Notes under the pieces: generated by a model
Database searches by the model: none
What the model saw: only the letters and a program-made list of their open reading frames with translations
Told to the model about the DNA's origin: nothing
Origin: Pseudomonas sp. Root71
GTDB lineage: Bacteria > Pseudomonadota > Gammaproteobacteria > Pseudomonadales > Pseudomonadaceae
Reading direction: 5' to 3'
DNA: 64,000 nucleotides
NCBI RefSeq assembly: GCF_001429045.1
Contig: NZ_LMHY01000012.1
Span: 538,695-602,694 of the forward strand
In this document: one piece after another, positions 5,260 to 41,193 of the stretch
Numbering within the stretch: the first letter of the stretch is position 1
Layout of the letters: each line of letters opens with the position of its first letter
Translations under genes and position numbers: made by a program

Positions 5260-6255
5260 TTAACGCCCTTCAAGCAACCCGGCAGCTTGATCCAGCAGGG
5301 CCAGGGGCTCCTTGGCCTTGTGGATATCCACCGACAACAACTGCCGAAACTTGCGCGCCCCCGGGAACCCGGTCCCCAGCCCCAGCACATGGCGAGTGAT
5401 GTGGTGCATCGAACCGCCGGCGTCGATGTGTGCAGCGATATACGGCCGCAACTGCGCCAGTGCTTCGGCACGGGTGATCACCGGCGCCGTGCTGCCGAAC
5501 AGCTGCTGGTCCACCTCGGCCATCACATAAGGGTTGTGATACGCCTCGCGGCCCAACATCACACCGTCGAACGTCTGCAGATGCTCGTGGCAGGCCTCCA
5601 GCGTCTTGATCCCGCCGTTGAGGATAATCTCCAGCTCGGGAAAATCCGCCTTCAACCGCGCCGCCACGTCATAACGCAGGGGCGGAATGTCACGGTTCTC
5701 CTTCGGCGACAACCCCTCCAGAATCGCAATCCGCGCGTGCACGGTAAAACTGGTGCACCCGGCATCCCGCACCGTGCCAACGAAATCACACAGCTGCTCG
5801 TAACTGTCCCGGCCGTTGATCCCGATACGGTGCTTGACCGTCACCGGAATCGACACCGCATCCCGCATCGCCTTCACACAATCGGCCACCAGTTGCGGAT
5901 GCCCCATCAGGCACGCGCCGATCATATTGTTCTGCACCCGATCACTCGGGCAGCCGACATTCAGGTTCACCTCATCGTAACCATGCTCCTGCGCCATGCG
6001 CGCACACGCGGCCAGGTCCAGGGGAACACTGCCACCGAGCTGCAGGGCCAGCGGGTGCTCGGCTTCGTTGTGCCGCAGGAAACGCTCGTGATCGCCATTG
6101 AGCAGGGCACCGGTGGTGACCATTTCGGTGTAGAGCAGGGCGTTTTTCGACAGCAGGCGCAGGAAGAAGCGGCAGTGGCGGTCGGTCCAGTCCATCATAG
6201 GCGCGACGGAGAAACGGCGGGAGAGTGGGGCGGGTGTGGCGGTGGCTGCGGACAT
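5260..6255 (-). CDS. dusA: tRNA-dihydrouridine synthase A (DusA)
   Basis: Flavin enzyme that reduces uridine 20/20a in the tRNA D-loop to dihydrouridine. The 331-aa protein carries the DusA start FSVAPMMDWTDRHCRFF, the LQLGG segment, the catalytic-cysteine block LNVGCPSDRVQ, the KHRIGI block and the NGGI phosphate-binding loop. The gene is intact. Its 5' end is the known target of a family of dusA-specific integrases, and here an island lies directly upstream: a second, orphan copy of the dusA start region with its upstream DNA is found at 15686-15873 on the far side of that island. The present 5' end and promoter were therefore probably supplied by the inserted element. Confidence 0.95.
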   Translation of the reverse strand: MSAATATPAPLSRRFSVAPMMDWTDRHCRFFLRLLSKNALLYTEMVTTGALLNGDHERFLRHNEAEHPLALQLGGSVPLDLAACARMAQEHGYDEVNLNVGCPSDRVQNNMIGACLMGHPQLVADCVKAMRDAVSIPVTVKHRIGINGRDSYEQLCDFVGTVRDAGCTSFTVHARIAILEGLSPKENRDIPPLRYDVAARLKADFPELEIILNGGIKTLEACHEHLQTFDGVMLGREAYHNPYVMAEVDQQLFGSTAPVITRAEALAQLRPYIAAHIDAGGSMHHITRHVLGLGTGFPGARKFRQLLSVDIHKAKEPLALLDQAAGLLEGR

Positions 6256-9492: not shown

Positions 9493-10450
9493 TTCGCCGT
9501 GTGGTTGACCGCCAGTATCCCGAACTGACCGGTGGCTATCACCTGCCGCGCTTTGCCCGGGTGGTGGCCATCCCCGACCCACCCACAAACGCGGGGCTGT
9601 GTGACGACTTCCGCCCACGTTTCGCCGCAGACCTTGAGGTTCTGGGGCCGGACGGCGAGCCCGATACGGCATTGCCACTGCTCCAGGGCGTGCCGCTGCC
9701 GTTGCCGATGGGTGGCGAGTCCATGGGGATCTACGGTCTTCCCGATGAAGGCACGATGGTCGTGGTGTCGTCTGCCTGCGGCCTAACGCACAAACCCTTT
9801 GTCCTAGCCATCCTGCCCTAGGGCTTGAGTCTGCCCAACCTGCCCAAAGGCGATCAGGTCTGGCAGCACAGCGAAGCGGTACAGCAGCGCATCGACGCGG
9901 ATGGTAACTGGCTGCGCCAGACCGCTGGCCAGATCCATGATCAGGCCAGCGAGCGCCGTGTGGAGGCGCTGGAGAACACTGAGCACCACCAGCACCACCA
10001 GCACCACCAGCGCCACAGCGTGACTGTGGATGACCACAGCCTCGAGTCAGTGGGTGGCATCAAAAAGATCGAGGCCCTGGGCTCGCTCAAGCTGCTCTCA
10101 GGCGGCTCCGCCAGCCTGGCGGCCGTGGACGACCTGCATCAGGCCACCGGGCGCGACTTGAATCTGGTGATCGGGCAGAAGCTCAATGCTTCGGTGGGAC
10201 GTGATATGGAAGAGCGCATCACCGGCTTACGACGCAGTGTCGCGGAAAAGGCCTGGATGGGGTCGGAGGGGATGAACGCGTTGCAGATTCTGTGCGACTT
10301 GCTCGACTTGGTGACGGCGATGACATGCAACTGGCCGGCCATACTCATGTCCCCGGACCGGCGCCGAGTCCGAGCGACGCGGGGGCCTTCACCGATAATG
10401 CGGCACAGGCCAGCGCGCTGGTCGGTCAGTTAAAACCCATCACTTTGTAG
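9480..10450 (+). pseudogene. Broken phage baseplate assembly protein V-like gene
   Basis: The ATG at 9480 overlaps the end of the tail-hub remnant. The first part (residues 1-113) has GGYHLPRFARVVAIPDPP...LPLPMGGESMGIYGLPDEGTMVVVSSACG, an OB-fold typical of gpV/gp5-type spike proteins. An in-frame TAG at 9819 stops it, and the same frame resumes as GLSLPNLPKGDQVWQHSEAVQQRID with a beta-rich spike region containing a His-Gln-rich tract (HHQ repeated three times). Near 10318 the frame shifts; only the frame ending at TAG 10448 gives the sensible C terminus (DMQLAGHTHVPGPAPSPSDA ... ALVGQLKPITL). Two stops and one frameshift make it non-functional as a single protein. Confidence 0.7.
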
Positions 10451-34353: not shown

Positions 34354-34374
34354 CGCTCACTGCGACTGAAAAGG

Positions 34375-34406
34375 GCCGATCTGTCGAATAGACAGATCGG
34401 CTTTTT
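34375..34406 (+). terminator. Rho-independent terminator of the NCS2 permease gene
   Basis: GCCGATCTGTC and GACAGATCGGC form a perfect 11-base stem with a five-base loop and five T. It lies just before the tetR operator at 34417. Confidence 0.95.
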
Positions 34407-34416
34407 GCTGTCGGTT

Positions 34417-34442
34417 TGTGACTATAAAACTAATCGGTCACA
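34417..34442. promoter_or_regulatory. Operator TGTGAC-N14-GTCACA before the tetR gene
   Basis: An inverted repeat of TGTGAC and GTCACA with a 14-base spacer lies 37 bases before the tetR start. The same half-sites and spacer occur at 36741 and 36861 in front of the efflux genes. This is the likely binding site of the TetR protein itself, giving self-repression. Confidence 0.75.
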
Positions 34443-34479
34443 AGTTGTCAGTCTTTGATAGGGTGAGTAAGCTGTACTC

Positions 34480-35106
34480 ATGAATCAGCCATCAAAATCT
34501 TCCTCTTCGCCTAGCCTCCGTGGCCCGGCCGATCACGACATTCGAGACCAGATTGTCGCAGCGGCCAATGAACATTTCAGTCAGTACGGCTACGGCAAAA
34601 CCACGGTTTCCGACCTGGCTAAGGCCATCGGGTTTTCAAAGGCCTACATCTACAAATTTTTTGATTCCAAGCAGGCGATCGGTGAAGCCATCTGCGCAAA
34701 TTGTCTGGCAGAAATCGTCGCGGCTGTGGAGCAGGCAATCAATGTAGAAGACCTGTCGCCGACGGAGCGCTTTCGACGCTTGGTCAAGACGGTGATCGCC
34801 ACAGGTGTGAATCTGTTCTTCAACGACCGAAAACTGTATGACATTGCAGCGTTCGCGGCGTCGGAAAGCTGGCCCAGTACGCAGGCTTATGACGCACAGA
34901 TCAAACGCTTCGTGGCGCAAATCGTGCGAGAGGGGCGAGAGATTGGCGAATTTGAACGCAAGACTCCGCTGGATGAGACAGTAGAAGCGATACATCTCGC
35001 GCTGCGACCATTCGTCAACCCTTTACTGCTGCAGTACAACCTCGATTTCGTCGAGGAGGCGCCCACGCTCACCTCCAATCTCATCTTGCGTAGCCTCATG
35101 CCTTGA
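34480..35106 (+). CDS. TetR-family repressor of the adjacent RND efflux system
   Basis: A 208-aa regulator. The N-terminal helix-turn-helix is clear (IRDQIVAAANEHFSQYGYGKTTVSDLAKAIGFSKAYIYKFFDSKQAIGEAIC). The rest is the helical ligand-binding region, with DRKLYDIAAFAASESWPSTQAY. Three identical-type operators stand in its own promoter and in both efflux promoters, so it most likely represses itself and the whole RND system until a toxic substrate binds. It is convergent with the outer-membrane factor gene at 35255. Confidence 0.85.
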   Translation: MNQPSKSSSSPSLRGPADHDIRDQIVAAANEHFSQYGYGKTTVSDLAKAIGFSKAYIYKFFDSKQAIGEAICANCLAEIVAAVEQAINVEDLSPTERFRRLVKTVIATGVNLFFNDRKLYDIAAFAASESWPSTQAYDAQIKRFVAQIVREGREIGEFERKTPLDETVEAIHLALRPFVNPLLLQYNLDFVEEAPTLTSNLILRSLMP

Positions 35107-35254
35107 CCTTCGGCTAAAGGTTTGCGGCATACCCGGGTAAGCACCAGATCATCAAAACGGCTTTTAACTTTGCCCTTCTTCCCATCCATCGAAGGGCATT
35201 TTATTTATCTTTTTTGTGATTATTTATTGAGTTGGTCACTTCGCTCCTATCAGG

Positions 35255-36715
35255 TCATCGTGTCGCAACAGGCTGGGCTTCAGGAGGTTGCCAGCCACCA
35301 CCTAGCGACTTGAATGCCGCAACCGCCGCTCGTGCCGATTCCGTTCGTGCTTGAGCTCGGGCATCAGAAGCCTGCAGCAACGTCTCGTCAGCGTGCAGAA
35401 CATCGATCAGGCTGGCCGTGCCTTTCTCATAGGCAATGAACGACGATTGGCGAGCCTGTGTCAGAGACGCCTCTCCAACAGTGAGGGTGGTTGCTTGAGC
35501 TTCCCGATTCACCAGTGAGGAGAGCGCGTTCTCGACATCCTCGGTGGCACGCAGTACGGACTGACGGTAAGCGGCCAGGGTTTCGGTCTCCTGTCCCTTG
35601 GCTTGGTCGATTTGGGCGTTTATGCGACCGAAGTCGAAGAGTCTCCAGCGCAGTCCCAATACGCCCGCCGACTGGCTGGCGCCGCCGGTAAAAAGGTTGC
35701 CTGCGGAGACAGCCGTGGCACTACCCAGCAATGCGCCAAGGGAGAATTTCGGGTAGTACTCAGCAATCGCCTCTCCGATGCGTGCGTTTGAGGCTGCAAG
35801 ATGGCGCTCAGCCACAATGAGATCTGGCCTGCGGCGCAGCAAATCGGCCGGCGTTCCCATTGCCTTTATCTGCGGCGCTACCGGAATGCTCCCCGCACTT
35901 GCCAATTGCGTGCGGTGAGTGCCTGGCGGCGTGCCGAGCATGACATCCAGCGCATTCATCGCAGCATCCAGTCCGGTCTGCAGGGCCGGCACTGTTGCTT
36001 GGACCTGCGATAGCGCCCCCTCGGTCTGGCGAACCTGATAGTTGGCGGCGAGCCCCTTGCTGTAGAGCAATTGGACTTTCTCTAACAAATCCTGCTGCGT
36101 TTTGACTTGCCTATTCGCAATGTCCAGCCGGGTCTGCAGTCCGCGGATAGTGATGTAGATATCAGCGGTCTGCGCGGCGATGGCCAATCTTGTGGCAGCG
36201 ACGCCCGCCTGGGAAGCCTGGTACTCGGCAAGAGCAGCCTCGTGTCCGCGGCGCAATCCGCCAAAGACATCTGCCTCCCAGCTGGCATCGAGGTTGGCCT
36301 CGTAGGAACTTGCGTACCGATCATTGCCAGGTGTTGAGTTCAACACCTGGCCGAGCGGCGTCTCGATTGACTGGTAGGAACGCGCGGCCTGTGCGCTGAT
36401 GTTCCCTGAGGGGAGTAAAGCGGCATTTGCAGCACCTAGTCCGGCCCGCGCCTGTGTGACTCGCGCCGATGCCTGCGCCAGGTCCAGATTCTGCTCAAGC
36501 GCCTTGGAGATGAAGTCGGTGAGCACTGGATCACCAAAGCCTTCCCACCAGGCTACAAGGCTGGCCGGCGTCGCTCCACGCCGCTGCTCGACAGAAGACT
36601 GACCCAAGTAACGATCCGAAAGCGGAGCGTCTGGACGATGGTAGTCCGGACCGACCGCGCAACCTGCCAATAAGCCGGCGCTGACCAAAAGAGCGATGGG
36701 GCGGAGGGGGGGCAT
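35255..36715 (-). CDS. Outer-membrane efflux factor (NodT/OprM family lipoprotein)
   Basis: A 486-aa outer-membrane channel that joins the RND pump to the outside. The signal peptide ends at a lipobox (LLAGCAVGPDYHRP), the standard NodT start. Two repeats of the outer membrane efflux domain follow; LRRRPDLIVAERHLAASNARIGEAIAEYYPKFSL is the conserved block of the second. The ATG at 36715 follows AAGGAAT. The gene is divergent from the adaptor-pump operon, an unusual split for this family, but the shared operator type joins them into one regulon. Confidence 0.9.
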   Translation of the reverse strand: MPPLRPIALLVSAGLLAGCAVGPDYHRPDAPLSDRYLGQSSVEQRRGATPASLVAWWEGFGDPVLTDFISKALEQNLDLAQASARVTQARAGLGAANAALLPSGNISAQAARSYQSIETPLGQVLNSTPGNDRYASSYEANLDASWEADVFGGLRRGHEAALAEYQASQAGVAATRLAIAAQTADIYITIRGLQTRLDIANRQVKTQQDLLEKVQLLYSKGLAANYQVRQTEGALSQVQATVPALQTGLDAAMNALDVMLGTPPGTHRTQLASAGSIPVAPQIKAMGTPADLLRRRPDLIVAERHLAASNARIGEAIAEYYPKFSLGALLGSATAVSAGNLFTGGASQSAGVLGLRWRLFDFGRINAQIDQAKGQETETLAAYRQSVLRATEDVENALSSLVNREAQATTLTVGEASLTQARQSSFIAYEKGTASLIDVLHADETLLQASDARAQARTESARAAVAAFKSLGGGWQPPEAQPVATR

Positions 36716-36740
36716 TGAGATTCCTTCAATAGAGGATATT

Positions 36741-36766
36741 TGTGACCATAGTACGCAATAGTCACA
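36741..36766. promoter_or_regulatory. Operator TGTGAC-N14-GTCACA before the outer-membrane factor gene
   Basis: The inverted repeat with a 14-base spacer begins 25 bases before the minus-strand start at 36715. It matches the sites at 34417 and 36861 in half-sites and spacing. Confidence 0.75.
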
Positions 36767-36860
36767 ACCTGTCAATTGAGGTGATTTGAGCGAATTTTGG
36801 GTTTTCTCGTTGGTAGCGCCGTTTATGTGTTGAGCTTGAGACGCTGAATGTTTCATGGTT

Positions 36861-36886
36861 TGTGACCATTGACACTTATGGTCACT
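36861..36886. promoter_or_regulatory. Operator TGTGAC-N14-GTCACT before the adaptor gene
   Basis: The same architecture as at 34417 and 36741, with one changed base in the right half-site. It lies 45 bases before the adaptor start at 36932. The 215-base gap 36716-36931 thus holds two divergent promoters, each with its own copy. Confidence 0.72.
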
Positions 36887-36931
36887 AGACTGAGAATGGG
36901 GCACTCGTCCTATTTTCAAGTAAGGGAACCT

Positions 36932-38041
36932 ATGCGCCGGCTTCGACCTTTCCCTATTGCCGCTTGCTTGTTGCCTCTCGTCCTGACGGCATGCGGCGAC
37001 TCATCCACCGTTGAAGATCCACGCACGCATGCTCCTCTGGTCAGGTCCGCAGCGGTTCAGGGTTCCTCCGGCGCCTCACGTTCTTTCACGGGGGTCGTGG
37101 CTGCCCGCGTCCAGGGCGATCTGGGTTTTCGGGTATCAGGCAAGGTGCTTGAGCGTCTGGTTGACACCGGTCAGACCGTTAAACGTGGTCAGCCACTCAT
37201 GCGCCTTGACCCAATCGACCTGGGATTGCAGGCGCGAGCACAGCAAGAGTCAGTCATGGCTGCTCGGGCCCGAGCCAAACAGACAGCAGATGACGAGGCG
37301 CGATACCGCAGTCTGGTTGCCGCAGGCGCTATTTCTGCATCGGCCTACGACCAGATCAAAGCCGCGGCGGATACCGCAAAGGCGCAGCTTAGCGCCGCCC
37401 AAGCGCAGGCTGATGTAGCCCGTAATGCTTCTGGTTATGCGGTGCTGTTTGCGGATTCCGACGGCGTTGTGGTGGAGACGCTCGCCGAGCCCGGACAAGT
37501 TGTCGGCCCGGGGCAGCCCGTGGTTCGATTGGCGCGGGCAGGGCAGCGCGAAGCGATCGTGCACCTGCCCGAGACGTTGCGCCCCGCAGCAGGATCCACC
37601 GCGCAGGCGACGCTTTATGGCAATGCCACGGATGCTGTTACAGCGAAGCTGAGATTGCTTTCTGATTCGGCCGACCGAATGACACGTACCTTCGAGGCGC
37701 GGTATGTGCTTGAGGGCGCGCTGGCCAATGCACCGATAGGTTCGACCGTCACGCTTCGGATCGCTGAAGGCGCCACGCAAGGGCAGGGGCTGCAAGTACC
37801 GATCGCTGCTGTCTATGACCCAGGCCAAGGCACTGGCGTGTGGGTCATCGCCGGTACACCGGCGAAGGTGGCCTGGCGACCTGTACAAATCCTGGGTTTG
37901 AGCGACGATACCGTGCGAGTCGCGGGCGACCTTAAAGTCGGCGAGCAGATCGTAGCGTTAGGTGCACATCTGTTGCGCGAAGGTGAAGAGGTGAGATTGC
38001 CTCAACAGGATGACGAAAAAGTTGCCGGGGGTCGTCCATGA
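36932..38041 (+). CDS. RND efflux periplasmic adaptor (membrane fusion) lipoprotein
   Basis: A 369-aa lipoprotein adaptor that links the RND pump to the outer-membrane channel. The lipobox is LVLTACGD. VAARVQGDLGFRVSGKVLERLVDTGQTVKRGQPLMRLDP is the lipoyl/barrel-sandwich half, followed by a coiled coil rich in Ala, Gln and Arg (ARAQQESVMAARARAKQTADDEARY). The second lipoyl half contains DGVVVETLAEPGQVVGPGQPVVRLA. AAGGGAAC precedes the ATG. Its stop overlaps the pump start by four bases (ATGA). Confidence 0.9.
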   Translation: MRRLRPFPIAACLLPLVLTACGDSSTVEDPRTHAPLVRSAAVQGSSGASRSFTGVVAARVQGDLGFRVSGKVLERLVDTGQTVKRGQPLMRLDPIDLGLQARAQQESVMAARARAKQTADDEARYRSLVAAGAISASAYDQIKAAADTAKAQLSAAQAQADVARNASGYAVLFADSDGVVVETLAEPGQVVGPGQPVVRLARAGQREAIVHLPETLRPAAGSTAQATLYGNATDAVTAKLRLLSDSADRMTRTFEARYVLEGALANAPIGSTVTLRIAEGATQGQGLQVPIAAVYDPGQGTGVWVIAGTPAKVAWRPVQILGLSDDTVRVAGDLKVGEQIVALGAHLLREGEEVRLPQQDDEKVAGGRP

Positions 38042-41000
38042 GCGAGGGGCGCTTCAATCTTTCCGCGATCGCCGTTCGTGAGCGCTCTGTCACGGTGTTT
38101 CTGATCTTCCTGATTGCCGTTGCGGGCATCCTGGCGTTCTTTCAACTGGGGCGTGCGGAAGATCCTCCGTTTACGGTCAAGCAGTTGACGGTCATTACCG
38201 CGTGGCCGGGCGCCACGGCGCAGGAGATGCAGGATCAGGTAGCAGAGCCACTTGAAAAACGCCTGCAAGAACTGAAATGGTACGACCGCACGGAAACCTA
38301 CACCCGTCCTGGCCTGGCCTTCACGATGGTGTCACTGCTCGATAGTACGCCGCCCTCGCAAGTGCAGGAGGAGTTCTATCAGGCGCGTAAAAAACTCGAC
38401 GACGAGGCCAGAAAGCTGCCGGCGGGTGTCATCGGGCCAATGGTCAACGACGAGTTTTCGGACGTGACATTTGCGCTTTTCGCCCTGAAAGCCAAAGGCG
38501 AGCCGCAGCGACTGTTGGTGCGAGATGCAGAGTCGTTGCGCCAACAACTGTTGCATGTGCCCGGCGTGAAGAAGGTCAACATTATTGGGGAGCAGCCCGA
38601 ACGTATCTTTGTTTCCTTTTCGCATGATCGGTTGGCCACCTTGGGTGTCTCTCCTCAGGACATCTTTGCCGCGCTGAATAATCAAAACGTGCTCACGCCC
38701 GCCGGTTCGATCGAAACCAATGGGCCGCAGGTCTTCCTCCGGCTGGATGGCGCCTTCGATAAGGTGCAAAAGATTCGTGACACGCCCATTGCGGTTCAGG
38801 GGCGCACGCTCAAGCTCGCCGACGTGGCGACGATCGAGCGTGGGTATGAAGATCCGGCAACCTTTCTCGTACGCAATAATGGTGAAGAAGCCTTGTTGCT
38901 GGGGATCGTGATGCGTGAGGGCTGGAACGGCCTTGACCTCGGCAGGGCGTTGGACGCGGAGACGGTCAAGATAAATGAAGGCATGCCGCTGGGCATGACG
39001 CTCTCCAAGGTCACCGATCAATCTGTAAATATCGATTCGGCCGTCGGCGAGTTCATGGTCAAGTTTTTCGTCGCGCTGCTTGTGGTGATGCTTGTCTGCT
39101 TTCTCAGTATGGGCTGGCGTGTAGGCGTTGTGGTCGCCGCGGCTGTGCCGTTGACGTTGGCCGTGGTGTTTGTGGTGATGGCGGCCACGGGAAAGAACTT
39201 TGATCGAATTACCCTCGGTTCGTTGATTCTGGCGCTCGGACTGCTGGTGGACGACGCCATTATCGCTATCGAAATGATGGTGGTGAAAATGGAAGAGGGC
39301 TACGACCGCATCAAAGCTTCCGCGTACGCCTGGAGTCATACGGCCGCGCCGATGCTTTCCGGTACGCTAGTGACGGCTATCGGCTTTATGCCCAACGGCT
39401 TCGCGCAATCGACAGCCGGCGAGTACACCAGCAACATGTTCTGGATCGTGGGCATTGCCCTGATTGCCTCCTGGGTGGTTGCGGTCGCTTTTACCCCATA
39501 CCTGGGGGTGAAGATGTTGCCGAACATCAAGAAAGTCGAGGGTGGTCACGCGGCCATCTACAACACCCCTAACTACAACCGCTTCCGCCGTGTTTTGACG
39601 CGAGTCATCGCTCGCAAATGGCTGGTGGCCGGCACTGTCATCGCTTCGTTTGTCGTGGCGATCCTCGGCATGAGCCTGGTCAAGAAGCAGTTCTTCCCGA
39701 CCTCGGACCGTCCCGAGGTATTGATTGAAGTGCAAATGCCTTATGGAGCCTCCATTGAGCAGACCAGCGCGACCACGGCCAAGATAGAGACCTGGCTACA
39801 AAAGCAGGATGAGGCAAAGATCGTCACGGCCTATATCGGGCAAGGCGCGCCGCGCTTCTATCTGGCGATGGCGCCGGAACTCCCTGATCCGTCGTTCGCC
39901 AAGATCGTGGTGCTGACGGACAGCCAGGAGGAGCGCGAGACCCTCAAGTTCCGAATCCGCGAAGCGGCGGCTGAGGGACTTGTCCCAGAAGCGCGTGTCA
40001 GGGTGACTCAGCTTGTTTTCGGGCCGTACTCGCCATTCCCTGTTGCCTACCGGGTGATGGGACCTGATCCATCAAAGTTGCGCGAGATTGCGGGCCAGGT
40101 ACAGGACGTGTTGCAGTCGAGCCCGATGATGAGAACCGTCAACACCGATTGGGGACCGCTGGCGCCGACGCTGCATTTTGCTCTGGATCAGGATCGCCTG
40201 GAGGCGGTGGGGTTGACGTCAAATTCAGTCGCGCAGCAATTGCAGTTCCTGCTGGCCGGAGTACCGATCACCGCGGTTCGTGAGGACATTCGTTCGGTGC
40301 AGGTGGTTGGTCGCGCAGCGGGTGATATCCGGCTCGATCCCGCCAGGATAGAAGGCTTTACGCTGGTGGGTGCGGCGGGGCAGCGGATTCCGTTGTCTCA
40401 GGTGGGAGCGGTCGATGTGCGTATGGAAGATCCGATCCTGCGGCGTCGTGACCGCACGCCGACCATCACTGTGCGTGGCGACATTGCCGAAGGCTTGCAG
40501 CCGCCAGACGTCTCGGGCGTGATCATGAAGGAGCTGCAGCCGGTCATCGACAAGCTGCCTGGCGGATATCGGATTGAACAGGCGGGTGCAATCGAGGAGT
40601 CGGGCAAGGCCGGTAAAGCGATGTTGCCGTTATTCCCGATCATGATTGCCATGACGCTGCTGATCATCATTGTCCAGGTGCGTTCGATCTCGGCGATGAT
40701 CATGGTGTTCCTCACCTCGCCACTGGGATTGATTGGCGTGGTGCCGACACTGCTGATCTTCCAGCAACCGTTTGGGATCAACGCTCTGGTCGGCCTGATC
40801 GCCCTTTCGGGCATTTTGATGCGCAATACGCTGATTCTGATTGGGCAAATCCATCACAACGCGCAAGAAGGGCTGGACCCGTTTCACGCAGTGGTCGAAG
40901 CCACGGTACAGCGTGCCCGCCCGGTACTGCTGACAGCGCTGGCGGCCATCCTGGCATTCATTCCGCTGACACACTCCGTCTTCTGGGGGACGCTGGCCTA

Positions 41001-41193
41001 CACGCTGATCGGAGGTACGTTCGTCGGAACCATCATGACACTGGTGTTCCTGCCAGCGATGTACGCCATCTGGTTCAAGATCCGTCCAGACAATACGGGT
41101 CAAACGGAGGCAGCGAATAAGCAGGCAAGCCTGGTGGACAGGACGCCACCCCGTCCTCTCGCCACTCACCTGAGCACCAAGCTCTACCCTTAA
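38038..41193 (+). CDS. RND-type efflux pump (AcrB/AcrD/AcrF family)
   Basis: Proton-driven inner-membrane pump of 1051 aa. It starts with FNLSAIAVRERSVTVFLIFLIAVAGILAFFQLGRAEDPPFTVKQ and has the usual twelve segments with two large periplasmic loops. GLLVDDAIIAIEMM carries the paired aspartates of the proton relay in segment 4. It couples translationally to the adaptor. The last few codons lie in DNA that matches the leader of the integrase gene at 58468-58530, so the true C terminus may have been replaced when an island inserted behind it. Substrates cannot be told; the TetR-operator arrangement points to induction by a small toxic compound. Confidence 0.92.
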   Translation: MSEGRFNLSAIAVRERSVTVFLIFLIAVAGILAFFQLGRAEDPPFTVKQLTVITAWPGATAQEMQDQVAEPLEKRLQELKWYDRTETYTRPGLAFTMVSLLDSTPPSQVQEEFYQARKKLDDEARKLPAGVIGPMVNDEFSDVTFALFALKAKGEPQRLLVRDAESLRQQLLHVPGVKKVNIIGEQPERIFVSFSHDRLATLGVSPQDIFAALNNQNVLTPAGSIETNGPQVFLRLDGAFDKVQKIRDTPIAVQGRTLKLADVATIERGYEDPATFLVRNNGEEALLLGIVMREGWNGLDLGRALDAETVKINEGMPLGMTLSKVTDQSVNIDSAVGEFMVKFFVALLVVMLVCFLSMGWRVGVVVAAAVPLTLAVVFVVMAATGKNFDRITLGSLILALGLLVDDAIIAIEMMVVKMEEGYDRIKASAYAWSHTAAPMLSGTLVTAIGFMPNGFAQSTAGEYTSNMFWIVGIALIASWVVAVAFTPYLGVKMLPNIKKVEGGHAAIYNTPNYNRFRRVLTRVIARKWLVAGTVIASFVVAILGMSLVKKQFFPTSDRPEVLIEVQMPYGASIEQTSATTAKIETWLQKQDEAKIVTAYIGQGAPRFYLAMAPELPDPSFAKIVVLTDSQEERETLKFRIREAAAEGLVPEARVRVTQLVFGPYSPFPVAYRVMGPDPSKLREIAGQVQDVLQSSPMMRTVNTDWGPLAPTLHFALDQDRLEAVGLTSNSVAQQLQFLLAGVPITAVREDIRSVQVVGRAAGDIRLDPARIEGFTLVGAAGQRIPLSQVGAVDVRMEDPILRRRDRTPTITVRGDIAEGLQPPDVSGVIMKELQPVIDKLPGGYRIEQAGAIEESGKAGKAMLPLFPIMIAMTLLIIIVQVRSISAMIMVFLTSPLGLIGVVPTLLIFQQPFGINALVGLIALSGILMRNTLILIGQIHHNAQEGLDPFHAVVEATVQRARPVLLTALAAILAFIPLTHSVFWGTLAYTLIGGTFVGTIMTLVFLPAMYAIWFKIRPDNTGQTEAANKQASLVDRTPPRPLATHLSTKLYP

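Follow-up and report, generated by a model that had tools for sequence, protein, structure and literature searches.

The question raised by this locus is whether a TetR-family regulator governs, as a single regulon, an RND efflux system whose genes are split between two strands, and whether the DNA word that it reads can be recognized directly in the sequence. Both had been claimed in a first-pass annotation of this 64-kb stretch of DNA from a soil Pseudomonas (hereafter, the window), which reported three matching palindromes. We examined the sites themselves, followed them through related loci, and compared the descent of the regulator with that of the pump.

A palindrome ahead of three genes in a split RND locus

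The locus contains tetR (34480..35106, plus strand; 208 aa), an outer membrane factor (OMF) gene for a NodT/TolC-type efflux channel (35255..36715, minus strand; 486 aa), a gene for a periplasmic adaptor, or RND membrane fusion protein (36932..38041, plus strand; 369 aa), and an RND permease gene (38038..41193, plus strand; 1051 aa). The OMF and adaptor starts are our own choice of an ATG ahead of a lipoprotein-like signal. tetR and the OMF gene are convergent, while the OMF and adaptor genes are divergent. An RND tripartite set is present together, as the permease (PF00873, 1.7e-148), the adaptor (TIGR01730, 1.9e-56, above cut-off) and the OMF (TIGR01845, 1.3e-93, above cut-off; PF02321) were each matched. 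The regulator carries an N-terminal TetR_N HTH domain (PF00440, 6.9e-13, above the gathering score) with the recognition helix GFSKAYIYKFF and a ligand domain of the TetR_C_27 family (PF17935); no NCBIfam model matched it above cut-off. Its AlphaFold2 model has ten helices (mean pLDDT 85.6), and the 50 matches listed by Foldseek for this model were TetR-type or other bacterial transcription regulators. The HTH domain and the modeled all-helical fold place the protein in the TetR/AcrR family. On either side of tetR are inverted repeats: a strong one at 34363-34413, between a xanthine-permease-like gene and tetR, which scores on the minus strand as a terminator-like stem (34401-34375), and one at 35173-35212 (GCCCTTC/GAAGGGC, then T-rich DNA), which is kept in close relatives and resembles a tetR terminator, though it is absent from the terminator scan output.

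The closest solved relatives of the permease are MexK (9xwg, 860 bits, the best match) and 6vej (761 bits), the TriC structure. Like the window's system, MexL-MexJK of Pseudomonas aeruginosa has a TetR-family repressor beside an adaptor-permease operon. Unlike mexJK, which is not known to have an OMF gene, the system in the window includes one; its permease belongs to a separate clade, the MexK-like-clade permease of this genome being a different gene (C26:192466, 41% identical to the window's), and its TetR model is only 16% identical to MexL (8wrf) by structural alignment. MexL acts on the mexJ promoter (PMC13188873). A MexL regulon was rejected since the permease is not orthologous to MexK and the TetR is so distant from MexL. 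The TriABC-type pump likewise has a related permease, but the TriC-like permease of this genome lies elsewhere (C5:108015, 39%) with two adaptor matches, whereas the window's system has one adaptor and its own TetR, and a TriC regulon was rejected on these grounds. With two further permeases of the same group in the genome at 41% and 39%, the present pump is therefore a third branch with its own clade.

Three candidate operators accompany these genes. O1 (34417..34442) begins 63 bp before the ATG of tetR, O2 (36741..36766) precedes the OMF gene and O3 (36861..36886) precedes the adaptor gene. The first-pass annotation had given all three as TGTGAC-N14-GTCACA; their positions and the N14 spacing are right, but O3 ends in GTCACT, so that O1 and O2 have no mismatch to the pattern and O3 has one (final base T instead of A). 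Allowing at most one mismatch, we found three sites in the window against 0.17 expected, and none of 100 dinucleotide shuffles had three or more; the sites are far above chance, and a chance origin is rejected. At up to three mismatches there was no enrichment (15 found vs 24 expected), and the statistical case therefore rests on the near-perfect sites. Scanning the window for further copies revealed a weaker fourth one just past tetR, which the annotation had missed. This operator-like site, O4 (35215..35240, TGTGATTATTTATTGAGTTGGTCACT), has two mismatches to TGTGAC-N14-GTCACA, with arms GTGAT/GTCAC and a decayed -35 core. A repeat search that was independent of the annotated pattern recovered the same site family (D1), with its fourth member at 35213-35239.

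Across the 6.25-Mb genome, the pattern with at most one mismatch occurs at the three sites of the window and at one other place, C25:125172, which falls inside open frames of both strands. By themselves the 12 bases are not diagnostic, since a reversed-pattern control gave 11 genome matches at the same threshold. Both arms intact (GTGAC/GTCAC), in turn, occur only at this locus. An extended pattern that includes inner bases (GTGACYAT-N8-ATNGTCAC, at most two mismatches) matched 10 times on the forward and 9 times on the reverse strand, against 5 and 2 for its reversed control; here too, intact GTGAC/GTCAC arms were confined to this locus, and the other matches at one mismatch, C22:530094 and C27:101388, both overlap open frames. 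A larger regulon in this genome was rejected, since no extended-pattern match beyond the locus has intact arms.

A promoter scan placed O2 and O3 on promoter elements. For the adaptor-permease operon it predicted TTGACA-17-GAGAAT, in which the -35 (36869-36874) lies at the centre of O3 and the -10 (36892..36897, plus strand) follows 17 nt past it. For the OMF gene it predicted, on the minus strand, TTGACA (36775-36770), a spacer of 16 nt and TACTAT (36753-36748), with the -10 inside O2; shuffled sequence gives 1.3 promoter-hexamer matches on average, so that the two in this region exceed chance only slightly. For tetR the same scan gave no promoter; TATAAA at 34423-34428, which is covered by O1 and stands outside the scan output, is a possible -10 of this gene. 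Among relatives, TTGAC occupies the operator centre in all 100 adaptor sites, none of 74 OMF sites and none of 103 tetR sites. Judged by sequence, one palindrome covers promoters in two ways, enclosing the -35 at the adaptor gene and the predicted -10 at the OMF gene, and because of this overlap bound TetR would exclude RNA polymerase.

The half-site centres of the operator are 20 bp, or two turns, apart. A TetR dimer covers about one turn, and QacR is an example of a repressor whose long operator takes two dimers (PMC6018408). Since the spacing here exceeds the span of one TetR-family dimer, two dimers per operator, a QacR-like stoichiometry, are likely. QacR and other two-dimer repressors resemble this system in that the palindrome is long (28 bp for QacR) and its half-sites lie beyond the span of one dimer (PMC6018408), but QacR reads another DNA word and serves another pump class, and the two dimers proposed here are read from the spacing.

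Operators and regulators in related loci

The comparison drew on the best 80 among the TetR's 520 confirmed relatives, on 119 genomes of the genus, on six plasmid loci taken from 125 records with a DNA match, and on control loci. Of these 119 genomes, 39 have a TetR of at least 57% identity (25 with at least 76%; 14 with the 57-64% type only) and two have a TetR at 41-44%, the remainder having generic TetR proteins among the matches listed. By identity to the window's TetR, we distinguished TetR-A (at least 75%) from TetR-B (50-75%), a rule under which five loci, from Dechloromonas, Pseudogulbenkiania, Methyloversatilis, Sedimenticola and Aromatoleum (68-71%), were counted as TetR-B although their place is with the pump lineage of TetR-A. 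Operator counts cover 147 loci, with rows dropped when the match started after query residue 40 or lay too close to the locus end. The loci are closely related and some species are in twice, in two collections (L140 and L159, for example, are the same place), so row counts are not independent events.

All 100 rows whose TetR is at least 50% identical to the window's have GTGAC-N14-GTCAC ahead of the adaptor gene: 75 of 75 TetR-A rows (74 distinct upstream sequences) and 25 of 25 TetR-B rows. Two loci without the site (L145 and L155) fall outside this count through row dropping. N14 was the only spacing that occurred when spacings of 4 to 24 were tried. The site is absent from all three rows (two distinct places) in which the TetR is at 40-46% with an altered recognition helix, and it is found in one of 15 rows without a local TetR relative, which include same-subfamily permeases (56-59%) and MexK/TriC-like loci. 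The OMF operator follows suit (59 of 61 TetR-A rows, 15 of 16 TetR-B rows, none of three with a TetR at 40-46% and the single row without a TetR); it is missing in L070 and L128, and the miss in L064 concerns a different OMF (33%). Ahead of tetR itself, the operator is present in 76 of 102 TetR-A rows, at exactly -63 in 69 of those 76, in 28 of 32 TetR-B rows and in none of the three rows at 40-46%. Its absence from 26 TetR-A and four TetR-B rows indicates that autoregulation is common and not universal; the misses include loci that have no OMF gene beside the pump (L029, L036, L048, L053, L054 and others).

The recognition helix follows the same division. The motif GFSKAY[IV]Y[KR]F[FY].SKQAIG is found in 114 of 117 distinct TetRs, and of the remaining three, one has the helix in its full reading and two have GITTAYIYRFF instead, both at loci without the operator. 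The pairing of regulator and operator is well supported by these sequences because the operator accompanies every related TetR, and is found only once without one and never with the other helix. Thus, the operator tracks the type of TetR and not the pump, which supports the idea of one TetR regulon over the split system, and its association with GFSKAY-type helices agrees with the claim that specificity is legible from sequence. In the ligand part, away from the helix, identity between TetR-A and TetR-B is only ~46-60%, and the two therefore probably answer to different ligands.

In two related members of the genus (L140 and L141), a GITTAYIYRFF TetR lies beside a permease of 70-72% identity and the GTGAC/GTCAC palindrome is gone; TGTTTAC/GTAAACA-like arms surround the same -35, a suggestive arrangement seen in these two related loci only. 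This may be a natural operator switch, though the GITTAY-type loci yielded no firm consensus for an operator.

The palindrome could instead belong to a different regulator, either a global one of the CRP/Vfr kind or another TetR, with the adjoining tetR being incidental. The CRP/Vfr word has TGTGA/TCACA-like arms, which the arms here resemble, and one locus, on a Pantoea agglomerans plasmid (NZ_CP068443.1), keeps intact OMF and adaptor operators (at 5451 and 5601) with no TetR between the two genes and none of this type on the whole 568-kb plasmid (best 31%); its regulator may be on another replicon, or its operators may be orphaned. CRP-type sites, however, have a short spacer, unlike the N14 of every adaptor site, and a global regulator would imply sites throughout the genome, whereas near-perfect ones are restricted to this locus. 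The site also vanishes where the local TetR has a different helix or is absent, and we thus regard ownership by another regulator as very unlikely.

Lineages of the regulator and the pump

In loci of Burkholderiaceae, Enterobacterales plasmids and other proteobacteria with the order OMF(-)/tetR(+)/adaptor/permease, the operators, their places and the recognition helix are the same as in the window, but TetR lies between the OMF and adaptor genes, whereas the window's gap is empty and a TetR of another lineage lies beyond the OMF gene. We compared TetR placement in 80 loci where the OMF and adaptor genes are divergent within 3 kb. TetR-A is outside and the gap (172-301 bp) is empty in 32 loci, the window included; TetR-B lies between with TetR-A outside in seven; TetR-B is alone, between the two genes, in 11; and a gene of the TetR-A lineage lies between in 26 (21 Pseudomonas loci, with permeases at 78-80%, and five from other genera, at 77-79%). 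The rest are three loci with a TetR at 40-46% and one without a TetR.

In L019, L020 and L139, whose gaps hold TetR-B, the sequence at either end of the gap aligns with that of the window (75-85%), where the gene is absent. Searches for TetR-B remnants in the gaps of TetR-A-only loci gave only weak matches (best E 0.13), and we therefore base the case for TetR-B loss on the aligned flanks. Trees of 43 hand-picked loci point the same way: the window's permease falls in a 25-row group with the pumps of TetR-B (support 100/100), while its TetR is separated from TetR-B by a branch supported at 100/99 and groups with the TetRs of the 78-80% pumps, so that the two trees conflict across well-supported branches. 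On this phylogenetic evidence, the window's regulon is a hybrid, with its regulator from one lineage and its pump from another. The pump's own TetR, which lies between OMF and adaptor in relatives, is gone here, and its operators would therefore have been taken over. The likely history is that a TetR-A gene became the neighbour of a TetR-B pump, that both regulators read the same operators, and that TetR-B, the pump's paralogous regulator, was then lost, leaving the neighbouring TetR-A to serve the operators that the pump had inherited. Such a takeover would be possible because the recognition helices of TetR-A and TetR-B are almost alike and would read one and the same DNA word.

This inheritance also lends itself to another reading, in which TetR activates transcription, or has only its own gene and that of the adaptor under its control, the OMF site being a leftover of the lost TetR-B. 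Both the OMF and adaptor operators do come from the TetR-B arrangement, and a few TetR-family members are activators. Yet sites over a -35 and a predicted -10 fit repression, and OMF sites are intact in nearly all TetR-A rows, those without TetR-B included, which argues that they are maintained. We give this reading very little credence.

We instead favour, with a probability of roughly 0.85, a local TetR repressor that acts on three promoters through a shared palindrome and whose pump was acquired by takeover. In this model, ligand-free TetR would bind the 26-bp palindrome, through its outer half-sites TGTGAC and GTCACA, ahead of tetR itself, the divergent OMF gene and the adaptor-permease operon, and a ligand, probably a pump substrate, would free all three units together.

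The fourth site and a lost FadL-type gene

In many relatives, tetR is followed by a FadL/TodX-type gene (PF03349, 1.6e-119), and all 42 such TetR-A rows have a TTGAC-core operator ahead of it, with 139 of 140 core bases kept in the 28 of these rows that were sampled. The window has no FadL-type gene, and its O4 is 112 bp from tetR, the same distance as in L005. By position and sequence, O4 marks a lost FadL-type outer-membrane gene, the same place in relatives being the predicted operator-promoter of that gene. A 66% identical FadL paralogue is encoded at C12:279451, and the genome pattern scans gave no near-perfect operator site for it. In L080, a 457-bp gap after tetR (~9640-10075) has no long ORF and still matches FadL, as expected of an intermediate in gene loss. 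A short-chain dehydrogenase gene replaces the FadL gene after tetR in L076-L078 and L136, with the same type of operator and an intact core.

What remains of the site after gene loss was compared in samples of 28 of the 42 FadL-bearing rows and 17 rows without the gene, and then in 26 with and 13 without, hand-picked. Where neither a FadL-type gene nor the adaptor gene is next and enough sequence is available, 18 of 24 TetR-A rows retain the site; of the remaining six, three keep 9 of 10 arm bases and three have lost the stretch. In the 13 loci without an intact FadL gene, which were picked for having a site and include L080 with its FadL piece, the commonest base has a share of 0.98 and 0.97 in the arms, 0.57 in the core and 0.53 and 0.50 in the flanks. 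After FadL loss, the palindrome arms thus appear mostly to persist while the -35 core scrambles.

For the window itself, we think it probable that O4 is no more than a vestige of the lost gene's promoter, in decay and now functionless: the arms have one altered base and the five-base core has two, and divergence from the nearest relative is greater at the site than in the flanking terminator. Against this, the 13 loci keep their arms next to a core and flanks that look unconstrained, which speaks for continued selection in other species. O4 might accordingly be an operator without a promoter, kept because bound TetR still acts there, for example by forming a loop with the operator of tetR, ~800 bp upstream, or with those of the OMF and adaptor genes, ~1.5 kb downstream, or by keeping transcription of tetR from running on into the convergent OMF gene. 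This lead is weakened by selection bias and shared ancestry, and we consider it doubtful.

Taken as a whole, the sequence evidence describes a local TetR/RND regulon of an ordinary kind, whose operator code is unusually easy to read and in which the takeover by a second regulator is clear. Among the matches listed in a search of open-licence papers, there was no description of this regulator or operator, which is weak evidence of absence. The predicted code, TGTGAC-N14-GTCACA with the -35 inside it at the adaptor gene, would thus be one undescribed in the literature searched, for a widespread TetR/RND family that ranges over Pseudomonas, Betaproteobacteria and Enterobacterales plasmids. That relatives have a FadL-type gene behind this operator hints at the involvement of hydrophobic compounds. 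The locus would represent a natural case in which one repressor takes another's promoters through a common recognition helix, and the GFSKAY and GITTAY helices offer a clean pair of systems for the residues that set operator choice in TetR proteins.
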